NCBI RefSeq assembly: GCF_000373965.1
Contig: NZ_KB892834.1
Coordinates: 402,190 to 466,189, forward strand
Direction: 5' to 3'
DNA: 64,000 nt
From: Uliginosibacterium gangwonense DSM 18521
GTDB lineage: Bacteria; Pseudomonadota; Gammaproteobacteria; Burkholderiales; Rhodocyclaceae
The notes under the pieces were generated by a model, which was not told where the DNA came from, did not search any database, and saw nothing but the letters and a program-made list of their open reading frames with translations. Position numbers and translations under genes: made by a program. Positions 4,753 to 60,933 of the stretch are shown here, piece after piece. How positions within the stretch are numbered: the stretch's first letter is position 1; each line of letters begins with the position of its first letter.

Positions 4753-4863
4753 GGTCACTCCCTTTGTGCTGTGGATAAGCTGAAGAGATTACTGGAGTTC
4801 AGGGCACAACAGACTGCATGTGCCCGTTATGCAGGGCGTGGAAGCTATCTTCGCTCTCAAATC

Positions 4864-5319
4864 TTAAAGTGTGCGGCTCAGATAAACGCTGTGAGGATCA
4901 AGCACATAGTCGGCAAACGGCTCGCAGGAGGTGAAGCCAAAGCGGGCATACAGCCTGCGGGCCGGGGCGAAGAAATCTGGCGAACCGGTTTCCAGACTGA
5001 GTTTCTGATACCCCCGGCGGCGGGCCTCAGCCAGAAGATGCTCCATCAATAGTGCGCCCACACCACGGCGACGGTAGGCGCGCGCCGTGCGCATGGATTT
5101 GATCTCACCATGCCCGGCCTCCAGCGCCTTCAAGGCACAGCAGCCCGCAAGCATCTCTCCCTCCCAGATCGTCCAGAAGGTGATTTCCGGACGGCGCAGG
5201 CCGTCCAGGTCCAGCGCATGCACGCTCTCGGCAGGCGTGGTGGCATGCATGTCATCCAGATGCTCTTGCAGCAGGGCGATAACGGCTTCGCCGCTCAGAT
5301 TATCCTGTCTGATGTCCAT
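4864..5319 (-). CDS. GNAT-family N-acetyltransferase
   Basis: 151 residues with a complete GNAT fold. The acetyl-CoA-binding segment is RRRGVGALLMEHLL (Q/R-x-x-G-x-G/A), preceded by the EIKSMRT strand typical of YsnE/PapA-type small acetyltransferases and followed by RLYARFGF near the C-terminus. The acceptor is not predictable: members of this subgroup acetylate small amines or are uncharacterised. It sits between the cupin and the metal-sensor gene on the same strand but with gaps of about 80 to 110 bases, so an operon is uncertain. Confidence 0.8.
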   Translation of the reverse strand: MDIRQDNLSGEAVIALLQEHLDDMHATTPAESVHALDLDGLRRPEITFWTIWEGEMLAGCCALKALEAGHGEIKSMRTARAYRRRGVGALLMEHLLAEARRRGYQKLSLETGSPDFFAPARRLYARFGFTSCEPFADYVLDPHSVYLSRTL

Positions 5320-5402
5320 GGCATGGGCTCTTACAAAATCCGGTGGAAATCCAAATTTAACACGTCATAGCTCAGCCGGGAGGATTCCGCATTCAGGGCA
5401 TT

Positions 5403-5678
5403 TCACCGCAGGTAAGAGCGCAGCACCGATAGCACGCGATCCACATCCTCGGCGCGTTGTTCCGGACTGGCGTCTTCCGCCCCCAGGTGTTCGCGGATGT
5501 GGCCTTCAAGCACCTCTGTCATCAGGCCCGCCACCGCGCCCCGCACGGCGGCAATCTGCTGGAGGACGGCGGCGCATTCGCCCCCTTCTTCGAGAAGACT
5601 TTCCAATGCCTGCATTTGACCCTTGATGCGGCGCACGCGGGTCAAAAGTGGCTTTTTGTTGTGGAGGGTGTGGGACAT
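5403..5678 (-). CDS. dmeR: RcnR/FrmR-family (DUF156) metal-responsive repressor, DmeR-like
   Basis: 91 residues, all-helical CsoR/RcnR/FrmR family. The four residues that define Ni/Co-type sensors are present at the expected places: His3, Cys35, His60 and His64, the RcnR fingerprint; FrmR has Glu at 64 and CsoR a different Cys-His-Cys set. In the family, apo-protein binds DNA and metal releases it. It is divergent from a cation diffusion facilitator gene with an RcnR-type operator between them, the dmeR-dmeF arrangement described in Rhizobiales. I infer Ni(II)/Co(II) sensing. The start at 5678 gives the family length and the MSH N-terminus. Confidence 0.88.
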   Translation of the reverse strand: MSHTLHNKKPLLTRVRRIKGQMQALESLLEEGGECAAVLQQIAAVRGAVAGLMTEVLEGHIREHLGAEDASPEQRAEDVDRVLSVLRSYLR

Positions 5679-5703
5679 GGCGCTCGTTTCATGAATCCGT
5701 ATA

Positions 5704-5718
5704 TACTGGGGGGGAGTA
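5704..5718. promoter_or_regulatory. RcnR/DmeR-type operator in the divergent dmeR-dmeF promoter
   Basis: TACTGGGGGGGAGTA matches the known RcnR site pattern TACT-G6-N-AGTA exactly, and is further flanked by TA on each side (tata...tata). It lies 20 bases before the dmeF start and 26 bases before the dmeR start, so one bound repressor could control both genes. Confidence 0.85.
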
Positions 5719-6815: not shown

Positions 6816-8045
6816 ATGAAGAACAAAGGTTTCACCACAGAGATTCTCCACAGCGACCGTCAATCTGCCATTGAGCACGGCGCACTCATCAAGCCGATCC
6901 ACACCTCGGTCGCCTTCGGCTACAAGACTGCAGAAGAAATCTGCGCCGTCTTCCAGGGCCGCCAACCCGGTTTCTCCTACGGGCGGCAGAACAACCCGAC
7001 CGTGGGCGCACTGGAGCAGAAAATCAGCAAGATGGAAGGAGGACTCGCTTCCATCTGTTTTGCTACCGGCATGGCCGCCATCACCACCACCCTGCTGACC
7101 CTGCTGCGCGCGGGTGACCATCTGGTCTCCAGCGCCTTTCTGTTCGGCAACACCAACAGCCTCTTCAACACCCTGACCACGCTAGGCATCGAAGTCACTT
7201 TCGTTGATGCCACCGATGCGGCCAATGTGAAAGCCGCCATCCGCCCGAACACCCGCATCGTGTTCGTGGAAACCATTGCCAACCCCTGTACGCAGATTGC
7301 CGACATGGAAGGCATTGGCGAGCTGTGCGCTGAACACGGCCTGCTGTTCGTTGTGGATAACACCATGACCTCACCCTGGGTGTTCCGCCCAGCGAAAACC
7401 AAGGCTGGGCTGGTCATCAATTCACTCACCAAGTACGTGGGCGGGCATGGCAACGCCTTGGGCGGCGCAGTGACCGAAACCGGGGTGTTCGACTGGAGCA
7501 CCTACCCGAACATTTATGACAGCTACAAAACCGGCAAACCGAGTAGCTGGGGGCTGCTGCAAATCCGCAAGAAAGGGCTGCGTGACACGGGCGCCTCGAT
7601 GACCGCAGAAACCGCCCACCATCTGTCGATGGGGGCCGAGACCATCGCGCTGCGCCAGGAACGGGAAGCCAGCAACGCACTCGCGCTGGCCCGCTTCTTC
7701 GCCAGCCACCCAGCCATCAAGAAGGTGTTCTACCCCGGGCTGGAGAGCCACCCGGAGCACGAACACGCCAAGCGCCTGTTCCGCACCTTTGGCTCGCTGA
7801 TGAGCATCGAACTCAAGCCCGAAGTGGACTGTTTCCAGTTCCTCAACAAGCTGGAGCTGGTGATCCTGTCGACCAACCTCGGAGACAACCGCACCCTGGC
7901 CATCCCCGTCGCCCATACGATTTTCTACGAAATGGGCGCAGAACGCCGCGCATCAATGGGGATTGCAGACAACACCATCCGCCTTTCGATTGGCATTGAA
8001 GACGTGGAAGACCTGCTGGCGGATTTTGAACAAGCGCTGGCTTGA
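6816..8045 (+). CDS. Cystathionine gamma-synthase family PLP enzyme (MetZ/MGL-like)
   Basis: 409 residues of the Cys/Met metabolism PLP-dependent family. The PLP lysine is in SLTKYVGGH (about residue 206); the canonical family motif is SATKYxxGH, so Ser-Leu replaces Ser-Ala. YGRQNNPT (about 55-62) is the active-site arginine/tyrosine loop contributed to the neighbouring subunit. Members include O-succinyl/acetylhomoserine sulfhydrylase, cystathionine gamma-synthase and methionine gamma-lyase; the sequence does not separate these. Monocistronic, with a 138-base upstream gap and no recognisable riboswitch. Confidence 0.82.
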   Translation: MKNKGFTTEILHSDRQSAIEHGALIKPIHTSVAFGYKTAEEICAVFQGRQPGFSYGRQNNPTVGALEQKISKMEGGLASICFATGMAAITTTLLTLLRAGDHLVSSAFLFGNTNSLFNTLTTLGIEVTFVDATDAANVKAAIRPNTRIVFVETIANPCTQIADMEGIGELCAEHGLLFVVDNTMTSPWVFRPAKTKAGLVINSLTKYVGGHGNALGGAVTETGVFDWSTYPNIYDSYKTGKPSSWGLLQIRKKGLRDTGASMTAETAHHLSMGAETIALRQEREASNALALARFFASHPAIKKVFYPGLESHPEHEHAKRLFRTFGSLMSIELKPEVDCFQFLNKLELVILSTNLGDNRTLAIPVAHTIFYEMGAERRASMGIADNTIRLSIGIEDVEDLLADFEQALA

Positions 8046-9918: not shown

Positions 9919-10731
9919 TTAGAAACCCGCAGTAATCCCCGTAAAAAACACGGTATCCGAGTGAGCGTTCTGGTCGATCACCTTTTCACGGTATTTTTGC
10001 AAGACGGCTAGTTGCAGGCCGAAGTGGGCATTGATGCGGGTGTTAAGCTCGCCCTGGAAGGCAAAACGTGCGCCGCCGTTAATCGAGTCCGGGTAGGCCA
10101 CAACGCGCTGTGAGAAACGGCTGGTGGGGGAGATCTGGTAGTGCAGCTCGGAGCCGATCAGCGCTTCCACGCCCCGGGCGTCGTCATTAGTGCGGTACTG
10201 CTCCACGCTATAGGCCAGACCGCCGTAGAGGTTGACGCTGAATTCATCGTCGTTGAACCAGCGATAGCCCAAGCCACTGCTTACGCTGCTGCGCAGGGTC
10301 ATGTCTTGCAGGCCATCGCGTTCCAGGCCGATGCCGGCAAAACCAAAGGTATTTTCGTCCAGCTTGCGCTCACCCCGAAAATCCGCCGTGGCGGTATCTG
10401 AACTACGGGTTCCGTTCTCCGAACTGCGCACGGCGAGCACATTGGCGGTCAGGCGGCTCTCGCGCATATTGCGCTCGGCATCCAGCGACAGGCTGCCCTG
10501 GTTGGAACTGGTGCCTCCGCGTCTGAGGGTCAGCCCCAGGCCCAGCGAGCCTTCCCACTTGCCAGAGCTTTCGTCCTTGATGTCCGGCTCCTGCGCGAGT
10601 TTGTTGAACATGGAATCTTTGATCGCCTTGGGCGTGCTGGGCAGCGCATCGTCTGCGCGGGCTGTGGATAAGCCTGCAAGCAGGCATAGCAAGGGCAAGA
10701 AGCGGAGCGCTCTGGAGGCGTTTTTCAACAT
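9919..10731 (-). CDS. DUF481-family outer-membrane beta-barrel protein (YdiY-like)
   Basis: About 270 residues with a signal peptide (MLKNASRALRF, cleavage near TARADD) and then alternating short amphipathic strands with the motifs WEGSLGLGLTLRRG, GFAGIGLERDGLQD and GLGYRWF, typical of the DUF481 'salt-induced outer membrane protein' group. It ends in aromatic Phe as outer-membrane barrels do. The start at 10731 matches the signal peptide although no convincing Shine-Dalgarno precedes it. Contains a perfect DnaA box (10663-10671). Role in the cell unknown beyond envelope location. Confidence 0.75.
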   Translation of the reverse strand: MLKNASRALRFLPLLCLLAGLSTARADDALPSTPKAIKDSMFNKLAQEPDIKDESSGKWEGSLGLGLTLRRGGTSSNQGSLSLDAERNMRESRLTANVLAVRSSENGTRSSDTATADFRGERKLDENTFGFAGIGLERDGLQDMTLRSSVSSGLGYRWFNDDEFSVNLYGGLAYSVEQYRTNDDARGVEALIGSELHYQISPTSRFSQRVVAYPDSINGGARFAFQGELNTRINAHFGLQLAVLQKYREKVIDQNAHSDTVFFTGITAGF

Positions 10732-11342: not shown

Positions 11343-12413
11343 TTATCCACAGGCTCGGAGCGCGGCCACAATATCCACAGGCTTCACGCCCGCCGCCACG
11401 CGATTCATCGGCGCGGAGTTGCAGGCCAGGGTAGCGGCCTGAAGCAGCATTTCATCGCTGGCATCGGCCAGCCCTACATCAGCCAGACTCACCGGCAGGC
11501 CCAGTTGCTGGGCGAATCTGCGCACCTGTGGATAAGTATCCGCCTGTGCCAGATTCAGCATGGCCAGCAGCCCCAACGTAACCAACTCGCCATGCAGTAT
11601 GCCCCGGCAGGCTGGCAAGGCAGTCAGCCCATTCTGGATGGCGTGGGCGGTGCCCAAACCGCCGCTTTCAAACCCGAGGCCGGAGAGCAGGATATTGGCT
11701 TCCACAATCCGCTCAAACGCTTCGCCGGGCTGCCTGTTGCGCAACTGCGCTACGGCCTCCAGTGCGCAATCCATCACCGTGTCATAGCATTGGCGGGCAA
11801 TCGCCAAGGCGAGGGCCGAGGGCGGCGTGCCCGCAATATTCAGCCAGCCCTGCTGGCGGGATTCCTCTGCCTCGAACCAAGTGCTGAGGGCGTCCCCAAT
11901 ACCGGCGACTAGCATGCGTAGTGGTGCAGAGGCGATCACGCTGGTGTCGACCAGCACACAGGCAGGGTTATGACGCAGGAAGCGATAGTGGGAGAAGGCG
12001 CCCTCCCCGGTCTGCATCACCGCCACCGAACTGCAGGGCGCATCGGTGGACGCGGCACTGGGGATCAGGATCAGGGCCACCCCGGCCAACTCGGCCGCTG
12101 CCTTGGCCGCATCCAGGACCTTGCCGCCGCCAACGCCCAGCAACACTTGTGCGCCACAGCGCTGAATCGCCTGGGCATTGACGCTAGCATTGGCCTCGCT
12201 GTTGGGGCCACTCAATACCGCCTCGCCCGCCAGCAGCCCCGCTTCGGTCAGTTGCGCCGCCAGCCTCGGCCCCAGTGACTTGGCGGCGAAATCATCCTGC
12301 AGCAACATCGCGCGGCCGCCCAGGCGGACAAGCTCGGTGTTCAAGGCCTGCAAAGCAGTCGGCCCCTGTATGTAGCGGCCTGGAAACTGGCAGGTGGTAT
12401 GCATGATGCTCAT
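11343..12413 (-). CDS. GldA-like iron/zinc-containing polyol dehydrogenase
   Basis: 356 residues of the iron-containing alcohol dehydrogenase superfamily, glycerol dehydrogenase branch. NAD-binding glycine loop GVGGGKVLDAAK (about 93-104), IPSAASTDAPCSS and the metal ligands in GIGDALSTW, GTAHAIQNG and HGELVTLG are present. In E. coli GldA oxidises glycerol to dihydroxyacetone with NAD; substrate here is inferred. Its ATG overlaps the stop of the rhomboid-propeller gene by four bases, so the two are translationally coupled. Its stop codon lies inside a perfect DnaA box. Confidence 0.82.
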   Translation of the reverse strand: MSIMHTTCQFPGRYIQGPTALQALNTELVRLGGRAMLLQDDFAAKSLGPRLAAQLTEAGLLAGEAVLSGPNSEANASVNAQAIQRCGAQVLLGVGGGKVLDAAKAAAELAGVALILIPSAASTDAPCSSVAVMQTGEGAFSHYRFLRHNPACVLVDTSVIASAPLRMLVAGIGDALSTWFEAEESRQQGWLNIAGTPPSALALAIARQCYDTVMDCALEAVAQLRNRQPGEAFERIVEANILLSGLGFESGGLGTAHAIQNGLTALPACRGILHGELVTLGLLAMLNLAQADTYPQVRRFAQQLGLPVSLADVGLADASDEMLLQAATLACNSAPMNRVAAGVKPVDIVAALRACG

Positions 12414-14371
12414 TGCTTATCGGCGGTGCACAACAGCTCACCATTTTCCTGTACGTAAGCCTGTGCATCCATTGATTTGGTGATGTCGAGAATGGAAAGG
12501 CTGCGCTGTTCGGGCGATGCCCCGTTGCTGATGGCATAAACATGGTGGCCATCCGGTGCAAACAAAACCGGCCCCGGCCAGCCCTGGAGCGGAAATACCC
12601 CGACAGTCTGCATGGTGGCAAGCTTGACCCGCCGCAAGGTGGAGCGACGCTGATCCGCCACCATGACAAAAGTGTTATCCGGGCTTGAATCAATTGCGAA
12701 ACTGTCCAGTCTTTCCCCACAAGCAGGCAAGCCCTGCGTGACCGTGCCCTTGTCCAGATCCACGCCCTCCAGCCCCAGGCTGCCCATGATCCACAAGGGC
12801 TTTTTCTGGCTGGACGAAATAGCACCAAAAAATACATTGCCTTCGGTGAGCGGGATACTTTTCAAGAGCTTGAGACTGCTTGCATCCAGTACATCCAGAA
12901 CATCCTTCGGGTTGTCATAGACCAGAATCTGGCTGTCGGCATTGGCCAGCCACAGACTCACAGGATGACCAAATGGTAAGTTGGCCGCCGAGCCACCAGA
13001 CAATTCAAAGGGCTTGCCCAAGGCCTGCCGGGTCTGCAGGTCCAGCGCGCTGACGCTGTTGTCCACGATATTGAGCACGTAGGCCCGGCGCCCATCTGCG
13101 CTTACCCTTAACGGCCCCGGATAACTCCCAGTGTGGATTTGCCCTACCAGCTTCTTTGTGCTGAGGTCAATAATCGCCACACCATCTTCAACCATTGAGC
13201 TGACATATGCAAAACGCTCATCCGGGCTCAGGGCCACACCTTTTGCCCCACGCCCCCGGCAGACGTTGCCACACGCCGGTTTCTTACCAGCAAAGGCCGG
13301 GCCTGCAATCTTATCCACAAGCTGCTGTGTGGTCAGATCAACAATCCACAGGGCATTGGCCTCACCCAGGCTCATATACAGGTGCTTGCCGTCCTTGCCC
13401 AACACCATGCTCGAAACAGTTTCGCCAAGTGGAATCACCAGCCCCCGTGCTGTTTTCTCATCAACCGGCGTCGGCGCATTCTTGCGGTCCGCCTCAATCA
13501 TGGCGGCAAGCTGCTTCTTTTCCAGAGCCTGGGCCTGCTCCTTTGCCTGATCATTGAGTTCAGTCTGCACCTGATCATGAAGTTCCTGCAGGGCAGCAGA
13601 AGCAGGTTGATTCACCAGCGGGTAGAGCATGCCCAGGCTGGCAAACACCACCAGCGCTGACGCCAAGACACGGCGAGCCACGGAGCCATCCACCCAGGAC
13701 ATGGAGAGCACAGCCCCTGCAATCATGCCCGCAATCAGGCCACCAACGTGGCAGGCATTGTCGATACCACGCCCGGCAAAGCCCATGACCAGCGTCAGTG
13801 CAACAGTCTGAGTCAGCGCCCCGGCCATGCCATTGTCCGCACCTTCCCCACCGCGAGCAGTACGCAGAAAATGCCGCGCCAGACATGCACCCGCCATACC
13901 AAGGAGTGCTCCCGAAGCCCCCACGCTGACCACCAGTTCCAACTGCGGCCCAATAGGCAGGCCCATGGGCAAGGCCGGAAAGTTGGCCACGGCGTTCGTG
14001 GCAGATTCAACGCGATTGGCATTCCACCAAGCGCTGGCAAAACTGCCAAACAGCCCCGCCACCAGATATACCGTTGCAAAGCGGATCGAACCGAAAACCC
14101 GCTCGGCGAAGGTGCCGCATATAAACAGCATGTACATGTTCATGGCCAGATGCACGATACCGCCATGCACAAACATGCTGGAAGCCAGCCGCCAGGGCTG
14201 CCCCATCAGGGTAAAGGGCGCGGCGTTGCCGCCATGTGACAAAAGGTCGCCCACCGTGGGTTCTTTCCAATCCACACCGCCATACACCTGAATGGCATAC
14301 ACAGCGATATTGGCAATGAGCAGAAGAAGAGTGACCTTGCCAATGGACAAGCGAAAAGACAGTTTCGGCAT
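12410..14371 (-). CDS. Rhomboid intramembrane protease fused to a beta-propeller domain
   Basis: About 653 residues. Residues 1-250 are a rhomboid: multiple transmembrane helices, HLAMNMYML (oxyanion Asn about 79), nucleophile Ser in GASGALLG (about 153) and His in DNACHVGGLIAG (about 208). A coiled-coil-like stretch (about 270-305, rich in Gln/Glu/Lys/Ala) follows, then a YVTN/WD-like propeller (about 310-640) with repeated 'LSPDERFAYVSS' and 'VSADGRRAYVLN' type units and a CGNVC pair. The start at ATG 14371 removes a TTG-initiated extension. The kinase of the Ter locus lies 86 bases upstream on the same strand, so co-expression is possible. The fusion suggests propeller-mediated recognition of a substrate; unproven. 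Confidence 0.85.
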   Translation of the reverse strand: MPKLSFRLSIGKVTLLLLIANIAVYAIQVYGGVDWKEPTVGDLLSHGGNAAPFTLMGQPWRLASSMFVHGGIVHLAMNMYMLFICGTFAERVFGSIRFATVYLVAGLFGSFASAWWNANRVESATNAVANFPALPMGLPIGPQLELVVSVGASGALLGMAGACLARHFLRTARGGEGADNGMAGALTQTVALTLVMGFAGRGIDNACHVGGLIAGMIAGAVLSMSWVDGSVARRVLASALVVFASLGMLYPLVNQPASAALQELHDQVQTELNDQAKEQAQALEKKQLAAMIEADRKNAPTPVDEKTARGLVIPLGETVSSMVLGKDGKHLYMSLGEANALWIVDLTTQQLVDKIAGPAFAGKKPACGNVCRGRGAKGVALSPDERFAYVSSMVEDGVAIIDLSTKKLVGQIHTGSYPGPLRVSADGRRAYVLNIVDNSVSALDLQTRQALGKPFELSGGSAANLPFGHPVSLWLANADSQILVYDNPKDVLDVLDASSLKLLKSIPLTEGNVFFGAISSSQKKPLWIMGSLGLEGVDLDKGTVTQGLPACGERLDSFAIDSSPDNTFVMVADQRRSTLRRVKLATMQTVGVFPLQGWPGPVLFAPDGHHVYAISNGASPEQRSLSILDITKSMDAQAYVQENGELLCTADKQ

Positions 14372-14457: not shown

Positions 14458-15960
14458 CTATGACCCCGACATCTGCACCACCAGTAGCCGCCCGCCTGTC
14501 TCTTGCGAGAGCAGGATCTGCGCGCCGTCTTCAAGCGCGATCTTGCCACCTATGGGGATATCCTGATTGGTGCGCACGTCACGCATCTGGGGCAGGTGTT
14601 CATTGACGAGATACCAGTTGCCCTGATGCTCGACAAAATAGCCTACGCGGCGTGCATCTTCTGCGGAGATTTTTTCATTCGGGAAGATGAAGCGGTTTTC
14701 GTGCCAGCGGAAAACCGATTGCCCACTGTAGACCATCACGCGGTGGTTGTCCGGCAGGAACTTGCCTTTGGCATGCGATGAGTAGAGGTTGAGCACCGGT
14801 AGCTTGCCACGATGCACGCTGCCACAGAAGGGGCATTTGGGTGACAGGGTGTTGTCAAAGGCATACCATTTCTGCTCGCAGTTGACGTTCGAACAGGGTT
14901 GGAGCAGGTCGACCGTCTTGACCAGTGCGGTTTCCCATTCATCGGCGGTGGGGCGTTTGGCCGGGTCATGCAGGCCTTCGATAAAGGCGCGCTCAAACAG
15001 GGCCGAAAGATAGGGGCCGGTAATACGATAGGGCAGTTTGCTGGTGTCTTTCCAGGGCAATTCACTGGCCTTGGCGTTGGCAGCCTTGATGCGGTTGGAA
15101 GCATCCGTCGGGTGCTCCACAAACAGGGCCTTTTCGCCCATCATCAATTCTTCGTCAAGCTGGGGGTCATTCACGTCATGCACCTTGTCGCCCCTCAAGG
15201 GGTGGCGGTAGAGCAGGTACATGTAGATCAGCACGGCCAAGGCATGCAGGTCGGTGGTGCGTGAAGGCAGCTTGCGCTGAGGGTCATCCTTGGGCAAGTG
15301 GCTGGTCATCACCACTTCGGGGGCGATGAAATCCGGCGTGCCAATCACGGCAGGGGGATGCTTTCCGGGTACGACCAAGCCGTCGATATCGATCAGGCAG
15401 GCTTGCCCGGTGGTAGGGTCGATCAGGCAGTTGTTGTAGCCAAGGTCGGAGTGGCTCAGGCCCGCCATATGCATACGGCGTACTGCACGCGCAAGCATCA
15501 GGCATACCTTGAGGTGGCGCATCCAGTCGCCCAACTCGCGGGAGTCGAGGAACTTGGCGCGATGGTTGGGGGTGGCGAACCACTTGCCGACTTTCTCCTT
15601 CTTGCGGATGCCGAGCATGTCATTGTTTTTCGAACCGTACTCGAAAAAGAAGCAATCCCGGTAGAAAGGCACCACCACGCCCAGGCGCCCTTCGTGTTCG
15701 ACTACGGCGGTCGGCCAGCAGTACAGTTTTTGCAGGTAGTCGCCACCTTCCTGGCCGAAGATTTTCTCCCTATAGCGTCCGGTGATCTCCAGCAGACGTT
15801 CCTTGGCGGCGGGTTCGGCCTTGTCACGGAAGAAGGCAACCACGTATTGACCATCCGGGCTGAACATCACGTCCTTGACCCCGCCCTGCGCCCGGACTTC
15901 GTTGATGAACCGCACGGTGCCGCCATCGCTGGCGGTCAGGGTGATGATTTCAGCAGACAT
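14458..15960 (-). CDS. Ter-associated protein kinase (TerY-P type) with zinc ribbon
   Basis: 500 residues. Kinase-like core with catalytic loop HSDLGYNN (about 170-177; HRD replaced by HSD), metal-binding DIDG in place of DFG (about 191-194) and GTPDFIAPE (about 207-215). C-terminal to it are a CxxxxC...CPFC zinc ribbon and a beta-rich, FHA-like tail. N-terminal 60 residues resemble a propeller blade. It ends the run terY-terY-PP2C-kinase known from comparative genomics (Anantharaman and colleagues) as the TerY-phosphorylation triad. GAGG upstream of the ATG supports the start. I infer phosphorylation of a Ter component opposed by the neighbouring phosphatase. Confidence 0.82.
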   Translation of the reverse strand: MSAEIITLTASDGGTVRFINEVRAQGGVKDVMFSPDGQYVVAFFRDKAEPAAKERLLEITGRYREKIFGQEGGDYLQKLYCWPTAVVEHEGRLGVVVPFYRDCFFFEYGSKNNDMLGIRKKEKVGKWFATPNHRAKFLDSRELGDWMRHLKVCLMLARAVRRMHMAGLSHSDLGYNNCLIDPTTGQACLIDIDGLVVPGKHPPAVIGTPDFIAPEVVMTSHLPKDDPQRKLPSRTTDLHALAVLIYMYLLYRHPLRGDKVHDVNDPQLDEELMMGEKALFVEHPTDASNRIKAANAKASELPWKDTSKLPYRITGPYLSALFERAFIEGLHDPAKRPTADEWETALVKTVDLLQPCSNVNCEQKWYAFDNTLSPKCPFCGSVHRGKLPVLNLYSSHAKGKFLPDNHRVMVYSGQSVFRWHENRFIFPNEKISAEDARRVGYFVEHQGNWYLVNEHLPQMRDVRTNQDIPIGGKIALEDGAQILLSQETGGRLLVVQMSGS

Positions 15961-15968
15961 GCAAAACC

Positions 15969-17636: not shown

Positions 17637-17639
17637 GCC

Positions 17640-18686: not shown

Positions 18687-18697
18687 ACAACCTCTGC

Positions 18698-47703: not shown

Positions 47704-50247
<2,544 letters not shown>

Positions 50248-52658: not shown

Positions 52659-54001
52659 GTTGGTCAGCATCCTCTTTCCCTATGCGGCCGCTTGGGGAGC
52701 TTGCAACCATCCAAGCTGGATATGCGTTTGAGAGTGCCCGATTTACGGACGTGCCAACGGATCTGCCTCTGGTAAAGGGGGAGAACGTTCAGCAGGGCTA
52801 TGTAGATTGGTCAATTGCTAAACGTTGGCCTGAAGCTGAGATAGATGCGCTTGAACAATTCCTCTTAAGGCCCGGCGATATTGTGGTTGCAATGGATCGG
52901 CCTTGGGTTGAAGCAGGATTGAAGTGGGCTTACATTAAGCCGGAAGATCCACCTTCGCTTCTGGTGCAACGGGTCGCGAGGCTGCGGGCTGGGGCTGAAA
53001 TTGATCAAACTTATCTGCGCGCAATCATTTCAAGTTCGTACTTCTCCGCTTACATCCAACCAATCGTCACTGGCGTTAACGTTCCGCATATCAGTGGAAA
53101 GCAAATTGCTGCATTCAAGGTGCCAGTTCCATCGATGGATGTACAGCGAAAGATTGCAGCCTTAATTTGTGCCTACGATGACCTGATCGCCAATAATCAG
53201 CGCCGCATCGCCTTGCTGGAGTCCATGGCCGAGGAAATATACCGCGAGTGGTTTGTGAGGATGCGCTTTCCAGGTGCGGGTCATAAGCCCTTGTCGAACG
53301 GAATACCCTCAGGATGGGTAAGCAGACCGCTTCGGAAATTAATTACGCATTACATCGGCGGAGGTTGGGGTGAGGATCAGGCCACGACTATCTGCCCCGA
53401 TGGTGCATTTGTCTTTAGAGGAACTGATCTCCCAGCAATCCAAGACGGGGATTGGGACAATTTTGTTTATCGCTTCCACAAGCCGTCAGCCCTTGCTTTC
53501 AGAACATTGGCGGTTGGTGATTTTGTGTTTGAAGTTTCTGGGGGGAGCACTAATCAACTGCTTGGCAGAAACCTGATGGTGTCAACCCAGCTTTTGGAAC
53601 ACCTTGACGCGCCTGCCATTTGCGCCAGTTTTTGCAAGCTGATTCGATTCGACCAAGCCGCTATCGCGCCGCTGTGGATGAAGTACTTCTTGAAGTTGTA
53701 TTACGACAGTGGTCTCGTCGGTTTATACCAAGTTCAATCAACTGGCATCAGCAATTACCAGTTCGAGGCGTTTATCACGAGGCAGACAGTGCTTGTGCCA
53801 GATGCGAGTCTACAAGCCGAGTTCTGCAAGCTGGTCGAACCACTGAACGAGCAACGCGACTCGCTTGCTAGAGCAAACTTGCATTTGAAGAGGACGCGCT
53901 ACGCCCTCCTCCCCCGCCTAATCTCTGGCAAACTACGGGTTGATGCCTTGGACATAAAGTTTCCGCCCAGCATGCAACAGCCCGAGGAGACAGCACCGTA
54001 G
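52655..54001 (+). CDS. hsdS: Type I restriction-modification specificity subunit HsdS
   Basis: 448 residues with two target-recognition domains (about 1-185 and 215-400), each followed by a conserved helix (RRIALLESMAEEIYREWFVRMRFPG after the first; the second ends LKRTRYALLPRLISGKLRV). Determines the bipartite target of the methylase/nuclease. The two recognition halves differ from each other, as expected. GC is lower than in hsdM/hsdR, a pattern common for exchangeable specificity genes. Confidence 0.92.
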   Translation: MSWSASSFPMRPLGELATIQAGYAFESARFTDVPTDLPLVKGENVQQGYVDWSIAKRWPEAEIDALEQFLLRPGDIVVAMDRPWVEAGLKWAYIKPEDPPSLLVQRVARLRAGAEIDQTYLRAIISSSYFSAYIQPIVTGVNVPHISGKQIAAFKVPVPSMDVQRKIAALICAYDDLIANNQRRIALLESMAEEIYREWFVRMRFPGAGHKPLSNGIPSGWVSRPLRKLITHYIGGGWGEDQATTICPDGAFVFRGTDLPAIQDGDWDNFVYRFHKPSALAFRTLAVGDFVFEVSGGSTNQLLGRNLMVSTQLLEHLDAPAICASFCKLIRFDQAAIAPLWMKYFLKLYYDSGLVGLYQVQSTGISNYQFEAFITRQTVLVPDASLQAEFCKLVEPLNEQRDSLARANLHLKRTRYALLPRLISGKLRVDALDIKFPPSMQQPEETAP

Positions 54002-54055
54002 GCAAGCATCAAGCAGGGTCTTGTTCATTCCGGCGCATAACACCAGGGAGGGGCC

Positions 54056-57000
54056 ATGGCAGCGAAGAACTTCATCAGCGAAGACGACATCGAACAGGCT
54101 CTGTTGCAGCGACTGCAGCACCTGTGCGGCTTCGATGTACTGAATTGCTTCACGGCCCAGCCCGAAGACCTGAACGACGGCTCCGGTCGTAGCGATAAAC
54201 GCGAGGTAATTTTGGCCGACCGACTACGCGCGGCGCTGGAGCGCCTGAACCCGCAGGCCCCGGCCCATGCGGTGGAGCAGGCTTTGGCCCAGCTGCTGCA
54301 GCCACGTACGGCGATGAGCTTGGTGGCGGCCAACCACGAGATGGACGGCCTCATCCGCGATGGGGTGCCGGTGACCTACAAGCCCGAGAGCGGGCCGCAG
54401 GCCGGGCAGATGGTGACCGAGCGGCTGCGCGTGATCGATTTCGATGCACCAGACCCGCGCACCGGTCGCAATCACTATCTGGCCGTGAGCCAGTTGTGGG
54501 TGCGCGGTGAGCATGGGTATCGGCGGCCCGATGTGCTGCTCTACGTGAACGGCCTGCCGCTGGTGTTCATCGAGTTGAAGAACAGCAAGGTCAAGTTGCG
54601 TGCGGCTTTCGACGACAACCTTATCACCTACAAGGCCGAGATTCCGCAGCTTTTTGTAGCCAATGCGCTGTGCCTGCTGAGTAATGGCATCGAAACCCGG
54701 CTGGGCAGCCTGACGGCGCAGTGGGAGCACTTCTTCACCTGGCTGCGGGTGGATGATGAGAAAGAGCAGCTCGACCGCAAGGCGATTGCCGCTCAGGGCT
54801 TGAGTGTGGAACGAGTGGTGCAGGGGCTGCTGCGGCCTGAGCGCCTGTTGGATTATGTGGAGAACTTCTGTGTGTTCTACCGCGAGACGCAGAAGGTGAT
54901 TGCGCAGAACCACCAGTTCATCGGCGTGAACAACGCCTTTGGGCAGTTCCAGCGCCGCCGCGAGTTGGGTGGGCGGCTGGGTGTGTTCTGGCACACCCAG
55001 GGCTCGGGCAAGAGCTTCTCGATGGTGTTTTACACCCGCAAGATCTTCCGTAAGCTCACTGGCAATTTTACGTTTGTGGTGGTGACGGACCGTGACGATC
55101 TGGACGGCCAAATCTACCGTAACTTTCTGCACACCGGCGTGGTGGCGGCCAAGGACGATGTGCGCCCGCGCGACAGCGCCCAGTTGCGTGACATGCTGGG
55201 CAAGAACAAGCGCGTGGTGTTTACGCTGATCCAGAAATTTCGCTACGACAAGGGCAAGGACTATCCGTTGCTCTCGGACCGCGACGACATCGTCGTGATC
55301 GTGGATGAAGCGCACCGCACGCAGTACGCGGGCTTGGCCGAGAACATGCGTGCCGGTTTGCCGCGCGCCAATTTTCTCGCTTTCACCGGTACGCCCCTGC
55401 TGGGCAGTGAGCGCAAGACCAATGTTTGGTTTGGCGATTACGTATCGGAGTACAACTTCCAGCAGAGTGTGGAAGACGGCGCCACGGTGCCGCTGTTCTA
55501 TGAGAAGCGCGTGCCCGAGGTGCTGATCCAGAACGATGATCTGAGTGCGGAGTTCGCCGAGATTCTGGAAGACGAGAATCTCGATGCGCAGGCACAGGAG
55601 AAACTGGAAAGGCGCTTCGCGCAGGAGATGGAGGTGGTCAAGCGCGATGACCGGCTGGACATCATTGCGCGTGACATCGTCTACCACTTCCCCCGCCGTG
55701 GCTATCTGGGCAAGGGCATTGTGATCTCGGTGGACAAATTCACCGCCGTGACCATGTTCGACAAGGTGCAGACGCTGTGGAAAGCTGAGATCAAGGATTT
55801 GAACGGCCGCATCATTGCCACCAAGAACGACGTGGAGCGGCAGCGTCTGAAGCAGCTCAAGGCCTGGATGAGCAAGGTTGAGATGGCGGTAATCGTCAGT
55901 GAAGAAGCTGGAGAGGAGGAGAAGTTCGCCAAGAAAAAGCTCGACATCAAGCCGCATCGCCAGCGCATGAACGCGCTGGATGAACATGGCCATGACATCG
56001 AATTCAACTTCAAGGACCCTGAACATCCTCTGCAGCTAGTGTTCGTCTGCGCAATGTGGCTGACGGGCTTCGATGCGCCGACAGTCAGCACGTTGTATCT
56101 GGACAAGCCCATGCAGGGCCATACGCTGATGCAGACCATCGCACGAGCTAACCGGGTGAGTGGCTACGAGATCTTGGGGGTGACCAAGCGGAACGGCGAG
56201 ATCGTGGACTACTACAACGTTTTCCGTCGTATGAAGAAGGCCTTGCGTGACTACGCCGCCGGCCCCGCAGATGACGAACTGCCTGTGCGGGAAAAGCAAG
56301 AACTCTTTGCTCTGTTGGACGAAGCCATCGAGCAGGGCTTTGCTTTTTGCAATGCACAGGATGTGCCCTTGCAGGAGGCGCTGGAACGGGGGGATGTGTT
56401 CACCAAGCTCGGCCAGTTCAATGTCTTTGCCGATACGCTGCTGGCCAGCGAGGAGCTACGCAAATCCTTCAACGTGTACGAGAACACTATCTCGGCACTA
56501 TACGAAGCCTGCAAGCCCGAGGTCTTGAGCCAGAAAAAAGGCCGTGTGGTGTCGGCTTTCCAGTACCTGCGCGGGGTAATGGATGCCATCGTGGAGCAGA
56601 CGGACATCGACAGCGCGGTGCAGCGCATTGAGGCGCTACTGGATGCCAGCGTGGTGGTGGACAACGCTGAGGCCTTTTCCGCCAAAGAATTTGAAGCGCA
56701 GTACAAGATTGTGCAGCGGGGTAAGGCCTGGGACCTCAGCAAGGTTAATGTCGATAAGCTGCGCGAGGAGTTCAAGCAAGCGCCGTTCAGGAACATCGAG
56801 ATTGCTGACCTGCAGGCCTTCTTGCAGCGCAAGCTCACCGAGATGCTGGCGCAGAACAGCACGCGAGTGGCTTTTTTGCAGCGCTTGCAGAAGGTAATCG
56901 ATGCCTACAACTCGGGCGCGACCTCTACCGAAAATTACTACGATGAGCTGACAGCTTACGCTGAGGAGTTGAAGGAAGAAGCCGAGCGTCACATCCGGGA

Positions 57001-57313
57001 AGGATTGACCGAGGATGAGCTGGAGTTGTTCGATCTACTGCAGAAGGAATCACTCACGCAGGACGAGACTCAGCGCGTGAAGCTCGCGGCCAAGCACCTG
57101 CTCAAGCGCCTGGTAGAAGAGCAGCCCAAGGTGTTGATCCAGAACTGGCACCAGAGTGCGCAGACGCAGAAGCAAGTGCGGGCAGAAATCGAGCGCGTGC
57201 TCGACACAGACTTGCCGGAGAGCTACGACCGCACAACCTTCAAGCAAAAGTGTGACAACGTGTACGACCTGGCTGTGGAGTACGCGATCAGGGGCAAGAA
57301 GTGGGCTGCTTGA
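54056..57313 (+). CDS. hsdR: Type I restriction endonuclease subunit HsdR
   Basis: 1085 residues. N-terminal PD-(D/E)xK nuclease (PDVLLYVNGLPLVFIELKN, about 158-178), SF2 translocase with Walker A TQGSGKSFSM (about 315), DEAHRTQY (about 416), and motif VI in TIARANRV. The C-terminal helical domain extends to the end. Frame is intact. ATG 54056 after GGGAGG-type Shine-Dalgarno; 54 bases after hsdS. Confidence 0.95.
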   Translation: MAAKNFISEDDIEQALLQRLQHLCGFDVLNCFTAQPEDLNDGSGRSDKREVILADRLRAALERLNPQAPAHAVEQALAQLLQPRTAMSLVAANHEMDGLIRDGVPVTYKPESGPQAGQMVTERLRVIDFDAPDPRTGRNHYLAVSQLWVRGEHGYRRPDVLLYVNGLPLVFIELKNSKVKLRAAFDDNLITYKAEIPQLFVANALCLLSNGIETRLGSLTAQWEHFFTWLRVDDEKEQLDRKAIAAQGLSVERVVQGLLRPERLLDYVENFCVFYRETQKVIAQNHQFIGVNNAFGQFQRRRELGGRLGVFWHTQGSGKSFSMVFYTRKIFRKLTGNFTFVVVTDRDDLDGQIYRNFLHTGVVAAKDDVRPRDSAQLRDMLGKNKRVVFTLIQKFRYDKGKDYPLLSDRDDIVVIVDEAHRTQYAGLAENMRAGLPRANFLAFTGTPLLGSERKTNVWFGDYVSEYNFQQSVEDGATVPLFYEKRVPEVLIQNDDLSAEFAEILEDENLDAQAQEKLERRFAQEMEVVKRDDRLDIIARDIVYHFPRRGYLGKGIVISVDKFTAVTMFDKVQTLWKAEIKDLNGRIIATKNDVERQRLKQLKAWMSKVEMAVIVSEEAGEEEKFAKKKLDIKPHRQRMNALDEHGHDIEFNFKDPEHPLQLVFVCAMWLTGFDAPTVSTLYLDKPMQGHTLMQTIARANRVSGYEILGVTKRNGEIVDYYNVFRRMKKALRDYAAGPADDELPVREKQELFALLDEAIEQGFAFCNAQDVPLQEALERGDVFTKLGQFNVFADTLLASEELRKSFNVYENTISALYEACKPEVLSQKKGRVVSAFQYLRGVMDAIVEQTDIDSAVQRIEALLDASVVVDNAEAFSAKEFEAQYKIVQRGKAWDLSKVNVDKLREEFKQAPFRNIEIADLQAFLQRKLTEMLAQNSTRVAFLQRLQKVIDAYNSGATSTENYYDELTAYAEELKEEAERHIREGLTEDELELFDLLQKESLTQDETQRVKLAAKHLLKRLVEEQPKVLIQNWHQSAQTQKQVRAEIERVLDTDLPESYDRTTFKQKCDNVYDLAVEYAIRGKKWAA

Positions 57314-57368
57314 TAGGGAAGCAATCGTTCTGCCATGGCGTACAAGTGGCGATCGGGAGAGAGAGTGC

Positions 57369-58427
57369 ATGAGTGATCAGCCAAGCGGGGAGTTCCTGCT
57401 CTACGAAACTGAAGACGGTAGAACGCGCGTTGAATGCCGTTTCGCCGAGGATACCCTGTGGTTGAGCCAAGCCTTGATGGCTGACTTGTTCCAGACCACG
57501 CCGCAGAACATCACCCTGCATCTGAAGTCTCTGTACGCAGAGGGTGAAATTGATCCGGTAGCAACTTGTAAGCCGTACTTACAAGTTCGCACGGAGGGTG
57601 GCAGGCAGGTCAAGCGTGAGCTCAGTTTCTACAACCTCGATGCCATCCTGGCTGTGGGCTATCGTGTGCGCTCGGTGCGCGGCACGCAGTTCCGGCGCTG
57701 GGCGACAGATAGGCTGCGGGAGTACCTCGTCAAAGGTTTCACGATGGATGACGAGCGACTGAAAAATCCGCCAGTGGGGCAGTCACTGGCGCCGGATTAT
57801 TTCGATGAGCTGCTCGGTCGCATACGCGATATCCGCGCCAGTGAACGGCGGATGTACTTGCGGGTGCGCGAGATTTTCGCGATGGCTGCGGACTATTCGC
57901 CAAGCTTGGCGGAGACAACACAGTTCTTCCAGACTATCCAGAACAAGCTGCATTTTGCCGTGACAGGTAAGACTGCAGCCGAGTTGATCCATGAGCGGGC
58001 GGATGCTTCGGCGCCGAACATGGGGCTAACAAGCTGGAAGTCTGACCGTGTAAACAAAACCGATGTGCGTGTGGCGAAGAACTACTTGCGTGAAGGTGAA
58101 ATCGACGAGCTAAATCGCATCGTAACGATGTGGTTGGATTTTGCCGAGGACCAAGCGAAACGTCGCAAGGAGGTCTTCCTAAAGGACTGGGAAGCGAAAC
58201 TGAACGACTTCCTTAGGTTCAACGAACGCGAAGTGCTGCCTGATGCGGGGAGTCGCTCGCACAAGCAGGCCGTGGCGTACGCGGAGGCCGAGTACGAGCG
58301 CTTCGCTGCCCAGCGCCGTACGCTGCTGGAAGCAGAGGGCGAAACGCATAACGTTCAGATGCTGGAAGCGGCTGCCAAGGCCCTATCCCCAGCCAAAAAC
58401 AAAACCCGCCCGCGAGGCCGCAAATGA
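57369..58427 (+). CDS. RhuM-family protein associated with type I RM locus
   Basis: 352 residues from ATG 57369. Virulence RhuM family: LWLSQALMADLFQTTPQNITLHLKSLYAEGE in the N-terminal winged-helix-like part and YNLDAILAVGYRVRSVRGTQFRRWATD, which is the family signature; C-terminal helical part rich in Arg/Glu. RhuM homologues recur in defence islands and type I loci; reaction unknown. Overlaps the next gene by four bases. Confidence 0.85.
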   Translation: MSDQPSGEFLLYETEDGRTRVECRFAEDTLWLSQALMADLFQTTPQNITLHLKSLYAEGEIDPVATCKPYLQVRTEGGRQVKRELSFYNLDAILAVGYRVRSVRGTQFRRWATDRLREYLVKGFTMDDERLKNPPVGQSLAPDYFDELLGRIRDIRASERRMYLRVREIFAMAADYSPSLAETTQFFQTIQNKLHFAVTGKTAAELIHERADASAPNMGLTSWKSDRVNKTDVRVAKNYLREGEIDELNRIVTMWLDFAEDQAKRRKEVFLKDWEAKLNDFLRFNEREVLPDAGSRSHKQAVAYAEAEYERFAAQRRTLLEAEGETHNVQMLEAAAKALSPAKNKTRPRGRK

Positions 58428-59377
58428 GCGACATCAAACTCTTCCGTTACGCCAATAACGGTGCCAGCGAGCTGGCCGGCAAGTCTGCTGCCATCGAGCG
58501 CACGCTTCAGCGGCTGATCGAATCGCAGATGGACACCTTTCTCGGTGTGCGCTTCCTCGCCACCGAGTACAACACCGGCGCCAAACATCGCGGGCGTATT
58601 GATTCATTGGGGCTGGACGAGAATGGCTGCCCGGTGATCATCGAGTACAAGCGCCACAGCAATGAAAACGTGATGAACCAGGGCCTGTTCTACCTGGACT
58701 GGTTGCTCGATCACAAGGCGGATTTCCAACTGCTGGTGATGAAGCAGTTGGGCAAGGAGGAAGCGGACAAGATCGAGTGGGGTGGCACGCGTCTGCTATG
58801 CATTGCGGCGGACTTCACGCGTTACGATGAACACGCTGTTGCGCAGATCAACCGCAATATCGAGCTCATTCGCTACAAGCTGTTTGGTGATGATTTATTG
58901 TTGTTTGAGTTGGTAAATGGGGTAAGTGCAACGTCTACCACGCCGCAAGTGGTGGTAGAGGATGAGCCCGTGTTTGAGGGGAAGCCTGCCAAGGTGCTCG
59001 CGGCTTCTACGCAAGCAATGAAAACCCATGCCGATCAAATCTCCACAGCTTCCCCTGACCTGCTGAGCTTATTTGAGCAGACGCGCAGTTTCATTCTTGC
59101 GCAGGGGGATGACATAATCGAGAAGCCACTCAAACTCTATGTGGCTTTCCGTCGTTTGAAGAATTTTGTGTGCATGTCGCTGATCTCGAAGGTCGATCCG
59201 CATGTGTTCATGACCCTCAAGCTTGATCCGGCAACTGTGATGCTGGAAGAAGGCTTCTCGCGCGACGTGACCAATATTGGTCACTGGGGTACAGGCGATC
59301 TGGAGCTGACCCTGCGTACACCCGCCGACTTCGAGAAGGCCAAGGCGCTGATCGAGCGGGCGTATTCAGAAAACTGA
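58424..59377 (+). CDS. DUF5655 / PD-(D/E)xK nuclease-like protein
   Basis: 317 residues. Residues about 1-160 carry GRIDSLGLDENGCPVIIEYKR, the D...(E)xK arrangement of a restriction-like nuclease core as in NucS/DUF91 proteins; the C-terminal about 200-317 is DUF5655 (LSLFEQTRSFIL ... LTLRTPADFEKAKALI). Often placed next to type I RM genes; function not established. Overlaps RhuM by four bases, so part of the same transcript. Confidence 0.82.
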   Translation: MSDIKLFRYANNGASELAGKSAAIERTLQRLIESQMDTFLGVRFLATEYNTGAKHRGRIDSLGLDENGCPVIIEYKRHSNENVMNQGLFYLDWLLDHKADFQLLVMKQLGKEEADKIEWGGTRLLCIAADFTRYDEHAVAQINRNIELIRYKLFGDDLLLFELVNGVSATSTTPQVVVEDEPVFEGKPAKVLAASTQAMKTHADQISTASPDLLSLFEQTRSFILAQGDDIIEKPLKLYVAFRRLKNFVCMSLISKVDPHVFMTLKLDPATVMLEEGFSRDVTNIGHWGTGDLELTLRTPADFEKAKALIERAYSEN

Positions 59378-59535
59378 GCGCATCCATTGATGCTTGGGAA
59401 GAACACAAAACCCCTGAATTTCCAACGTTGGAAAGTACTTTAAATATAGTATTATTCTTTGTAATCAATAACTTAGTTGTTGACGGCTTTCGAAAATCTG
59501 ATAGTCTTGTAGGTACTGTCCTATTGAGTATTTTC

Positions 59536-59961
59536 GTGAGCAGCCCCTTTTCTGACTTCCTCCGATCTCAACGTTTGCGAAGTGGCCTGCGCCAAGCTGA
59601 GCTGGCGCATCTGCTTGGCTACGAACAGGCCTACATCTCGGCACTTGAGCTTGGCGAAAAACCTCCGAGTGAAGAGTTTCTGAAGCGGCTTGGGGCTGAG
59701 CTGCGCTTTACTGCGAAGGACTTCGCAGAGATGAATGAAGCCGTTCTGGAGTCTCAGCGGCGCTATGTCCTGCCCCGCGATCTGCCTACCGACATCTACC
59801 GCATGTACCGAGAGCTCTGGCTGAAGCTGGAAAAGCTCCACCCGGCTCAGATCGGGGCGATTCGTCACATCCTTAAACTGGATGAGCAAATGAAGTCAGA
59901 ACCTGTCTTTCAGCCCGCTCGCATCAAGCGACGCACACAGGAACAGGAGGCCACAATGTAA
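59536..59961 (+). CDS. XRE-family helix-turn-helix regulator
   Basis: 141 residues from GTG 59536 (SSPFSDFLRSQRLRSGLRQAELAHLLGYEQAYISALELGEKPPS), an N-terminal XRE domain followed by a helical part. The frame continues upstream but without homology. A TTGACG/TAGTCT pair with 16-base spacing lies about 60 bases before it and could be its promoter. It sits between the defence genes and tnsA and may control either. Confidence 0.78.
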   Translation: MSSPFSDFLRSQRLRSGLRQAELAHLLGYEQAYISALELGEKPPSEEFLKRLGAELRFTAKDFAEMNEAVLESQRRYVLPRDLPTDIYRMYRELWLKLEKLHPAQIGAIRHILKLDEQMKSEPVFQPARIKRRTQEQEATM

Positions 59962-60222
59962 AACGGACCAAACCCAGAGGGCCTGATCCGTTCGACAACC
60001 GGCCGATGACCGGGTACTGTAAGTTAGCGCCTCCAGTATCCCGATAGACCGGCTCACGGTCAAGACCTCCCAAGACTTTTCCACTGGCCCACTTGGCTAG
60101 AACTGTTGGTTTTACAGCCAACAGCGGGTGGTTGTACGCCCCGAAATCCGGTGTTCCAGCCGTGCGTCGCCTACAGCGGCCGCGTCGGGTCAGTGTTGCC
60201 CAAACATTCTGAGGATACTGAA
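59962..60222. other. Gap upstream of tnsA
   Basis: 261 bases with no gene. A stem CTGTTGG/CCAACAG (60103-60109 and 60118-60124, loop TTTTACAG) is visible; no GTGAGAC repeats occur here. No promoter is assigned. Confidence 0.4.
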
Positions 60223-60933
60223 ATGACATATATGTACATACCCCACGTTCCGGCGATCGGGCGGAGTTATCCACACCTTCCTTTTCATCAGACGCGTAAC
60301 CCGGTACGGCATACTGGGCGCGGATTCCGGGTCAAGTTCGCCTCCCAGAAAATGCGCCGGATGATCCGCTGCGAAAGTCTGTTGGAGATGCAGGCTGTGC
60401 AGCTTGCTGAGTTCGCACGAGACATTCTGACTATTGAAGAGCAACCCTTCAGGCTGCGTTACAGGGTAAGTGGCAAGCTGCGCCGCTATACCCCCGACTT
60501 TCGGTTTTGCTGGAGGGACGGTCGGGAATGGATTGTCGAGGTCAAACCACAGGAACGACTGGCCCTTCCGAAGAATCAATCCCGGTTCGCCAGAATCGCC
60601 GAAGTGGTTGCGGCGTCTGGCGCAACATTCGTTGTGCTGACTGAAGCGCAGCTTCACCGCGATGCGCTGAATGATCAGATCAATCAATGGCTTCGCCGTC
60701 GTCAGATATCCTTCCCTTCCACTTCGGAAGCACCACTGCAGAAGCTTTGGGCGGATCGAATCGGAAAGCTGCAGTGCTCACTGGAAGAGGCAGAGCAGGC
60801 CTTGGGCGGCAAGGACGTCGTTCAGCAGCTTTTCGCTCATCGTGACTTGGTGTGTGAGCTTGATGCGATAGGTTCTTCTCGCATGACCGTTCGTTTGTTC
60901 AGGGAGGGAGACGATGATGCCCTCTTTGTTTAG
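60223..60933 (+). CDS. tnsA: TnsA endonuclease of a Tn7-like transposon
   Basis: 236 residues from ATG 60223 (GAGG upstream). Heteromeric-transposase TnsA: catalytic residues readable as Glu55 (RCESLLE), Asp92 (YTPDF) and the EVK pair 106-108 (WIVEVKPQ), matching E-D-(Q/E)xK of TnsA. Cuts the 5' ends of the element. A DnaA box sits at 60267-60275. Overlaps tnsB by 20 bases. Confidence 0.93.
   Translation: MTYMYIPHVPAIGRSYPHLPFHQTRNPVRHTGRGFRVKFASQKMRRMIRCESLLEMQAVQLAEFARDILTIEEQPFRLRYRVSGKLRRYTPDFRFCWRDGREWIVEVKPQERLALPKNQSRFARIAEVVAASGATFVVLTEAQLHRDALNDQINQWLRRRQISFPSTSEAPLQKLWADRIGKLQCSLEEAEQALGGKDVVQQLFAHRDLVCELDAIGSSRMTVRLFREGDDDALFV

Follow-up and report, generated by a model that had tools for sequence, protein, structure and literature searches.

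An origin-centred, mostly gene-embedded field of perfect DnaA boxes in Uliginosibacterium gangwonense as a probable titration sponge for DnaA

The stretch of DNA analysed here (the window) comprises 64,000 nucleotides of Uliginosibacterium gangwonense DSM 18521 and corresponds to positions 402190-466189 of C1, the contig that carries dnaA; this genome is labelled G000, and the other members of the genus G001-G007. The dnaA gene, located by a search for the DnaA domain, occupies positions 44435..45958 of the window on the forward strand (C1:446.6-448.1 kb) and is followed by dnaN and gyrB. The 617-bp gap between dnaA and dnaN (45959..46575) is presumed to be oriC; it is 61% AT and contains two perfect DnaA boxes, together with TTGTCCACA at 46367. 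Counted on both strands, the perfect DnaA box TTATCCACA occurs 27 times in the window, where 0.25 copies are expected and the largest count in any of 100 dinucleotide-preserving shuffles was 3. It is the 9-mer with the highest ratio to trinucleotide expectation in the window (124.7 times), and the 11-mer GCTGTGGATAA is present in 9 copies. A previous examination of these letters (the sequence-only reading) had listed 26 boxes; 25 of its coordinates are exact, 46528 should read 46527, and the box at 7352 was overlooked, while its count of ten boxes between 25.1 and 33.2 kb was borne out by exact search. It had also placed the boxes outside oriC, a misleading label because dnaA and the presumed origin sit inside the box span and the field is centred on them. 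Three boxes do flank dnaA (44263, 46122 and 46527); the other 24 of the 27 are not oriC-type boxes beside this gene.

The whole genome carries 87 perfect boxes in 5,021,710 bases and 35 contigs, 53 of them on C1 (601,747 bases) and 34 elsewhere. Around position 447400 of C1, which lies inside dnaA, 7, 20, 29, 39 and 43 boxes are found within 10, 25, 50, 75 and 100 kb, respectively, whereas the rate farther than 75 kb from dnaA is 0.099 per 10 kb. Measured against this outside rate, two stretches are dense: C1:395-452.7k (57.7 kb, hereafter the core), with 28 boxes versus 0.57 expected (49-fold), and C1:496-517k, with 9 versus 0.21 (43-fold). The stretch between them, C1:452.7-496k, has 2 boxes versus 0.43 expected, the part from 517k to the contig end has 3 versus 0.83, and C1:0-395k forms a mild shoulder (11 versus 3.9). 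The limits of these segments were chosen after the data had been viewed, and therefore the corresponding P values are nominal and optimistic. Box density peaks at dnaA and the presumed oriC, as in origin-proximal accumulation, and the enrichment survives removal of the three boxes that flank dnaA, since 25 of the 28 core boxes are left. From C1:395k to 517k, the field amounts to 39 boxes over approximately 121 kb, most of them single, with 3 of 38 gaps of 200 bp or less. Of 38 boxes, 26 read in the direction of the replication fork, which is a weak bias (P 0.034). A regular spacing was considered and rejected, the 27 gaps of the core having a coefficient of variation of 1.17, which is near random. 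A similar density throughout the genome, of the type known for uptake sequences or HIP1 (highly iterated palindrome 1), was not observed, and the suggestion of a genome-wide motif under selection did not hold.

Base composition does not explain these numbers. The 1,680 distinct permutations of the box 9-mer average 0.22 copies in the core, and the next best of them, ACTTATCCA, which overlaps the box, reaches 7, against 28 for the box itself. When synonymous codons were shuffled within genes and intergenic DNA was kept fixed, so that 6 of the 28 core boxes were immovable, the core averaged 7.6 boxes and reached at most 12 (n=300). The same shuffle gave 4.3 boxes versus 9 seen in 496-517k, 1.5 versus 6 in 302-395k, and 2.3 versus 3 in 517-586k. 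Both the uneven density, with 39 of the 87 boxes in 5.02 Mb lying within 75 kb of dnaA, and the excess over 9-mers of the same composition run counter to the idea, raised in the sequence-only reading, that the boxes might be a compositional habit shared by all parts of the genome. An inserted repeat was likewise rejected as their source; no long stretch of sequence recurs among the listed flanks of the 27 window boxes, and 39 of 41 comparisons at sites of the Ter operon described below are ungapped.

Most of the boxes lie within genes, the positions of which come from a simple codon-usage gene call. In C1:302-586k, 33 of 48 boxes are wholly within called genes, in five strand and frame combinations, and in the window 20 of 27 are, with one more in an open reading frame (ORF) that the gene caller missed. 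At the left of the window, the box at 4770..4778 (-) is intergenic in this call, and those that follow are found in a gene for a pyridoxal phosphate (PLP) enzyme of Cys/Met metabolism (7352..7360, -), a DUF481 gene (10663..10671, -), an Fe-ADH-like gene with two boxes (11343..11351, +, which includes the stop codon as TGT GGA TAA, and 11527..11535, -) and a rhomboid/beta-propeller gene (13311..13319, +). The region of the Ter stress operon (14458..31573), which encodes a kinase, PP2C, TerY, TerD, TerF, TerC, AIM24, ATP-grasp, PRTase, StiP and C-C lyase proteins at approximately 13-30 kb from dnaA, contains 11 boxes, the host genes of which have homologs in five genomes of the family. They are located under the annotation PP2C phosphatase (16413..16421, -, and 17510..17518, -), in terC (21781..21789, -), in a TerD/TerF-like gene (25131..25139, -), in the ATP-grasp_Ter gene (26955..26963, +), under the annotation PRTase_2/TRSP (27720..27728, -; 28349..28357, +; 28461..28469, -), in the gene at 28814-29569 that has no Pfam match (29407..29415, -), in the StiP/PELOTA_1 gene (30363..30371, -) and in the C-C bond lyase gene (30794..30802, +). 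Two boxes that are intergenic in the gene call (32743..32751, -, and 33135..33143, -) precede those in parB (35740..35748, +), parA (36473..36481, +) and rsmG (36986..36994, -). Upstream of dnaA lies the box at 44263..44271 (-), which has a similarly placed counterpart in most relatives, and the dnaA-dnaN intergenic region holds those at 46122..46130 (+) and 46527..46535 (+). The gyrB box (47913..47921, -) is the sole coding box seen to share its position with a box of G003, another species of this genus. Directly after gyrB starts the box-poor stretch, whose part in the window (50550..64000) carries type I restriction, RhuM-family, TnsA-like, Mu/rve transposase and TniB genes (50550-63969) and which has genes for efflux, ABC transporters and signalling in its far half; its only box in the window is that of the TnsA-like ORF (60267..60275, +). 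The stretch would fit recent arrivals that have yet to gain boxes. Two palindromes, TGTTNCACGTGNAACA, at positions 39259 and 39904 between mnmG and mnmE are parS-like.

A repeated protein motif does not underlie the coding boxes, given the five strand and frame combinations and the differing residues. Their commonest residue reading is Val-Asp-(Asn/Lys), and the longer Ala-Val-Asp-(Asn/Lys), which had been described as frequent, is seen at 5 of the 27 window boxes (27720, 28461, 29407, 30363 and 35740). In six relatives of the same genus, the site of the box shows 4-6 mismatches in parB, 1-4 in parA and 5-6 in rsmG; in gyrB there are 0-3 mismatches in seven genus relatives, with none in G003. 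Two relatives show 1 and 3 mismatches in the gene of the PLP enzyme, two show 7 and 7 in the DUF481 gene, and a distant efflux-pump match has 5. At the rsmG box, the protein reads Cys-Tyr-Pro-Gln in G000 versus Cys-Arg-Pro-(Asp/Gly/Gln) in all six relatives, i.e., Tyr in place of Arg. The Ter operon allows a comparison of the same genes in other genomes. StiP, used as the marker of this operon, was detected in 7 of the 101 family genomes searched, including this one, and 6 were over the cut-off; the five other strong genomes were compared and the weak G015 was left out. Their operon stretches contain no perfect box in 97,853 bases, versus 11 in the operon near dnaA, nor is there one in the 48,055 coding bases orthologous to the Ter genes of G000. 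The ungapped comparisons at the box sites of this operon show 2-8 mismatches. The relation to the origin was covered for G121, G057 and G106, in which the operon and dnaA are on separate contigs (G106 having a dnaA fragment only); G114 gave no full-strength dnaA match and G100 was left out. An import of the boxes along with the Ter operon is not supported, the five homologous operons carrying none. The presence of a box thus appears to follow the place on the chromosome and not the gene.

A second field exists within the genus. In G003, 15 perfect boxes are present on the dnaA contig of 92,803 bases, where trinucleotide frequencies predict 0.24, and another 23 are scattered over the approximately 5.4 Mb outside it; on this contig TTATCCACA is again the top 9-mer (62 times its expectation). 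Nine of the 15 boxes are in called genes and six between genes. For seven of the nine genic boxes an ungapped comparison to at least one relative could be made: at six of them every relative differs by 2-7 mismatches, and the seventh is the gyrB box, identical in G000. Three of these seven sites are comparable to G000, with 3, 0 and 3 mismatches, the last in a protein of 30% identity. The second species therefore has a box field at mostly different sites, and its parAB genes have no boxes at the positions of those in parA and parB of G000. The dnaA stretches of the remaining members of the genus contain 3 boxes in 120 kb (G002), 4 in 120 kb (G007), 5 in 59 kb (G004), 2 in 40 kb (G006), 2 in 20 kb (G005) and 2 in 17 kb (G001); that is, the dense field of G000 and G003 is not conserved among these six, which have 2-5 boxes. 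A tree of six proteins sets the six other genus members, G006 not counted, apart from G000 with support 100; the five of these that remain without G003 are joined with support 62, and G006 branches outside all other members. The fields of G000 and G003 may stem either from a single ancestral field, followed by loss, or from two independent gains.

On a wider scale, when 80 named dnaA loci are taken together with as much as 10 kb to either side, the maximum is 5 boxes (in the locus of G003) and two loci have 4, against 7 for G000 in the same span; most of them have a box upstream of dnaA and many one or more downstream. By raw count G000 is the highest of 395 family genomes (87; the next have 39 and 38). 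Among 369 genomes of the class, G442, G587 and G711 exceed this count and G694 equals it, with control counts of 17-54 versus 21 for G000. Within the family, G121 and G147, with 2 boxes within approximately 60 kb of dnaA and 4 boxes, respectively, lack a sharp field, and G396 has 10 boxes over approximately 183 kb of its dnaA contig; this survey of box-rich genomes for a similar layout leaves out G330 (fragmented), G192 (positions given for 22 of its 28 boxes) and G076 (positions given for none). Other arrangements were seen in the class, where G727 has boxes on many of its contigs, several of them paired at distances of 76-84 bp, where G682 has 7 of its 27 boxes within approximately 113 kb on one side of dnaA (C1:1.17-1.28 Mb), and where G478 shows an unusually box-rich compact origin with 12 perfect boxes within 0.46 kb beside dnaA (C30:6012-6473). 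In the order, G031 would be a one-sided partial case if its single contig is circular: 10 of its 29 boxes would then occupy the final 93 kb ahead of dnaA, with another immediately behind the gene, partly in tight clusters. Away from dnaA, G000 itself has three perfect boxes on the same strand within 0.65 kb of C13 (337168-337814; L166:2668-3314), a contig without dnaA. It also has, on C35, an exact inverted pair, TTATCCACA-N5-TGTGGATAA (L158:2266-2288), which recurs in L159, L160, L161, L162, L163, L164, L165 and L167; these nine loci, picked because they already showed the pair, span the genus to the class. The pair adjoins hemE (uroporphyrinogen decarboxylase) in L158, L159 and L163, while the flanking ORFs tested in L160 and L162 are not hemE, and it is a candidate for a DARS- or datA-like or regulatory site.

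The protein expected to read these boxes is DnaA. Over a 92-residue alignment of its DNA-binding domain to E. coli DnaA (chain 1j1v), the recognition segment of 13 residues is identical, and recognition of TTATCCACA by this DnaA is expected for that reason. The gap between dnaA and dnaN contains one GATC, and none is found in the 0.4 kb upstream of dnaA; a sequestration of the SeqA type is not suggested, because the presumed oriC is not rich in GATC (no search for seqA or dam was made).

Several systems are known in which selection has distributed a short motif through genes, such as the matS sites of MatP in the Ter macrodomain, the FtsK-orienting polar sequences (KOPS), DNA uptake sequences and HIP1, and of these matS is confined to one chromosome domain. 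The field described here differs in that its motif is the DnaA box and in its confinement to the origin region, whereas those motifs have other readers or roles. A closer parallel is found in E. coli and Salmonella, whose DnaA boxes are denser around oriC, an arrangement proposed to favour titration; this broad accumulation covers centisomes 98 to 5, includes degenerate motifs (approximately 902 boxes per genome) and exceeds the mean density by about two standard deviations (Olivi et al. 2025, PMC12371093). Both cases share the density near the origin and its persistence without the boxes of oriC. Unlike in E. coli, the field in G000 consists of one exact 9-mer enriched 43-49-fold in two stretches within approximately 70 kb of dnaA, and it is variable within the genus. 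It therefore shows the density features of the E. coli type of accumulation and lacks the conservation, and it can be described as a sharp, single-motif, gene-embedded and extreme variant of a broad and weaker pattern. The resemblance to datA proposed in the sequence-only reading was not borne out. Like datA, DARS1 and DARS2, which affect initiation in E. coli, the field is made of DnaA boxes that are not part of oriC; however, datA has closely spaced boxes at a single locus (PMC5835720, PMC11317965), and here dozens of mostly single and mostly genic boxes extend over approximately 120 kb, with no compact cluster of that kind among the 39. A literature search returned no report of a sharp origin-centred box field, which is weak evidence of absence as most subscription papers were outside its coverage, and, within the same limited coverage, no paper that joins Uliginosibacterium and DnaA. 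In two papers (PMC13386857, PMC6699656), enrichment of DnaA boxes serves just to find oriC.

In the initiator-titration model, high-affinity boxes of the chromosome soak up DnaA (Hansen and Atlung, PMC5835720; Fu et al., PMC10977104), and the dissociation constant of E. coli DnaA for TTATCCACA with oriC-like neighbours is near 1 nM (PMC5835720). The original simulations are described as usually placing more boxes near the origin. According to the model of Berger and ten Wolde (2022), when titration acts alone only sites near the origin prevent re-initiation during fast growth; that work took the sites of E. coli as uniformly distributed and called placement at the origin inconsistent with experiments (PMC9640692). 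In G000, in contrast, a strong placement at the origin is visible in the sequence. The field is real, strong and local, and its layout is the one to be expected of initiator titration; it is most simply read as the outcome of selection for DnaA binding close to the origin. We consider it probable, with some reserve, that this origin-centred and mostly gene-embedded field is a titration sponge that holds back re-initiation, and titration of DnaA by early-duplicated sites, the function that the sequence-only reading had put forward, is the likeliest one on these data. DnaA would fill the sites of high affinity first; once these are saturated, free DnaA would rise and oriC would fire. Next, the forks would duplicate 39 of the 87 perfect boxes nearly immediately, and the doubled boxes would bind the free DnaA, lower its level after initiation and thereby prevent a second firing. 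If the replichores are symmetric, these 39 boxes would be doubled in the first 3% of replication, because 75 kb correspond to that fraction of a replichore of approximately 2.5 Mb; 2.6 boxes would be if they were evenly spread.

Several observations weigh against this interpretation or limit its reach. The genome-wide counts cover perfect boxes only. In E. coli, chromatin immunoprecipitation with sequencing linked DnaA to no more than 13 of 32 single boxes with the perfect sequence, and pairs separated by 2-3 bp were preferred (PMC11317965); none of the 39 field boxes has a tandem neighbour at that distance matching at least 7 of 9 positions, and 3 have one matching at least 6 of 9, versus 1.3 expected. 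With approximately 300 copies of DnaA per origin reported for E. coli (PMC10977104), 39-87 perfect sites may be a small number compared with the DnaA of the cell. A candidate Hda on contig C32 suggests that further controls act on DnaA. The six genus members other than G003 have 2-3 boxes beside dnaA and 0-2 farther out in the stretches covered, and hence close kin manage without a dense field. Boxes with one changed letter, tried as a proof that DnaA is the reader, also proved weak. The core has 29 of them versus 6.8 expected, with 14 versus 1.6 at positions 3 and 5, which are loose in the consensus TTWTNCACA, and 3 versus 2.6 at positions 4 and 6-9; nevertheless, 12 versus 2.4 are at positions 1 and 2, where the E. 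coli consensus is strict. The box-poor stretch has 18 versus 4.0, largely at position 2 with some at positions 6 and 9; in G003, 50 are seen versus 9.0, position 9 included. Since the excess occurs in these places too, it is a weak sign of a tolerance of the DnaA type, and as it extends even to the box-poor stretch, the trinucleotide expectation evidently runs low.

Other functions of the field have to be weighed against titration. The boxes could bind DnaA in order to organise the origin domain or to help segregate it, for instance as DnaA-covered DNA interacting with ParA and ParB, given that parA and parB lie inside the field and bear boxes, that the parS-like sites are close by and that the boxes tend to follow the fork. 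We regard this as unlikely, as the parAB genes of G003 lack boxes at these sites, the orientation bias is weak and a strand bias in E. coli has been tied to titration and to the regulatory inactivation of DnaA (RIDA) (PMC12371093), and no such organiser made of DnaA was met with in the literature covered. The boxes are of the strong R1/R4 type and their proximity to the origin would time an effect to the start of replication, so that they might also be conceived as a dispersed counterpart of datA or DARS, altering the nucleotide state of DnaA near the origin through ATP hydrolysis or exchange. The DARS loci, however, are compact. Boxes that are mostly single and far apart contrast as well with the closely spaced ones of datA (PMC5835720), and we find this explanation improbable. 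Still more so is a role as sites through which DnaA controls the transcription of genes near the origin, the Ter stress operon included: three boxes flank dnaA and some are intergenic, yet the great part of those in the window is inside genes, and the five other Ter operons do without them.

The motif by itself does not name its reader, and the one-letter variants fit the E. coli consensus poorly, which would agree with another DNA-binding protein using the same 9-bp site. This is very improbable for a field that is centred on dnaA and composed of the exact R1/R4 box in an organism whose DnaA keeps the recognition segment of E. coli. That the field has no function at all, the motif having become common through local composition, a bias in mutation or the spread of a small mobile repeat, is scarcely credible. 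The post hoc segment limits, which make the nominal P values optimistic, speak in its favour, but it is already contradicted by the permuted 9-mers, by flanks without long shared sequence, by the 2 boxes of the neighbouring stretch and by the different sites used in the two species.

The role of chromosomal DnaA boxes in the timing of replication has been debated since the initiator-titration model was proposed, and E. coli offers a blurred test of it, with boxes that are widely spread and mixed with SeqA, datA and DARS. A sharp field of a single motif, with close kin that lack a dense one and a second species that uses mostly other sites, constitutes a natural experiment on this question, and the origin-centred field is a simple signature to seek elsewhere. 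More tentatively, and with the balance of our judgement somewhat against it, it is conceivable that some bacteria control replication mainly by geometry: the genes adjacent to oriC, accessory operons included, would have been rewritten by selection, sometimes with amino-acid changes, into a dense sponge of DnaA boxes of top affinity that is duplicated right after firing. Such control would amount to a natural case of titration by sites placed at the origin, which theory demands and which E. coli was believed not to possess; individual sites would change from one species to the next, with the density maintained. These observations suggest that the position of a gene on the chromosome can itself constrain its coding sequence.

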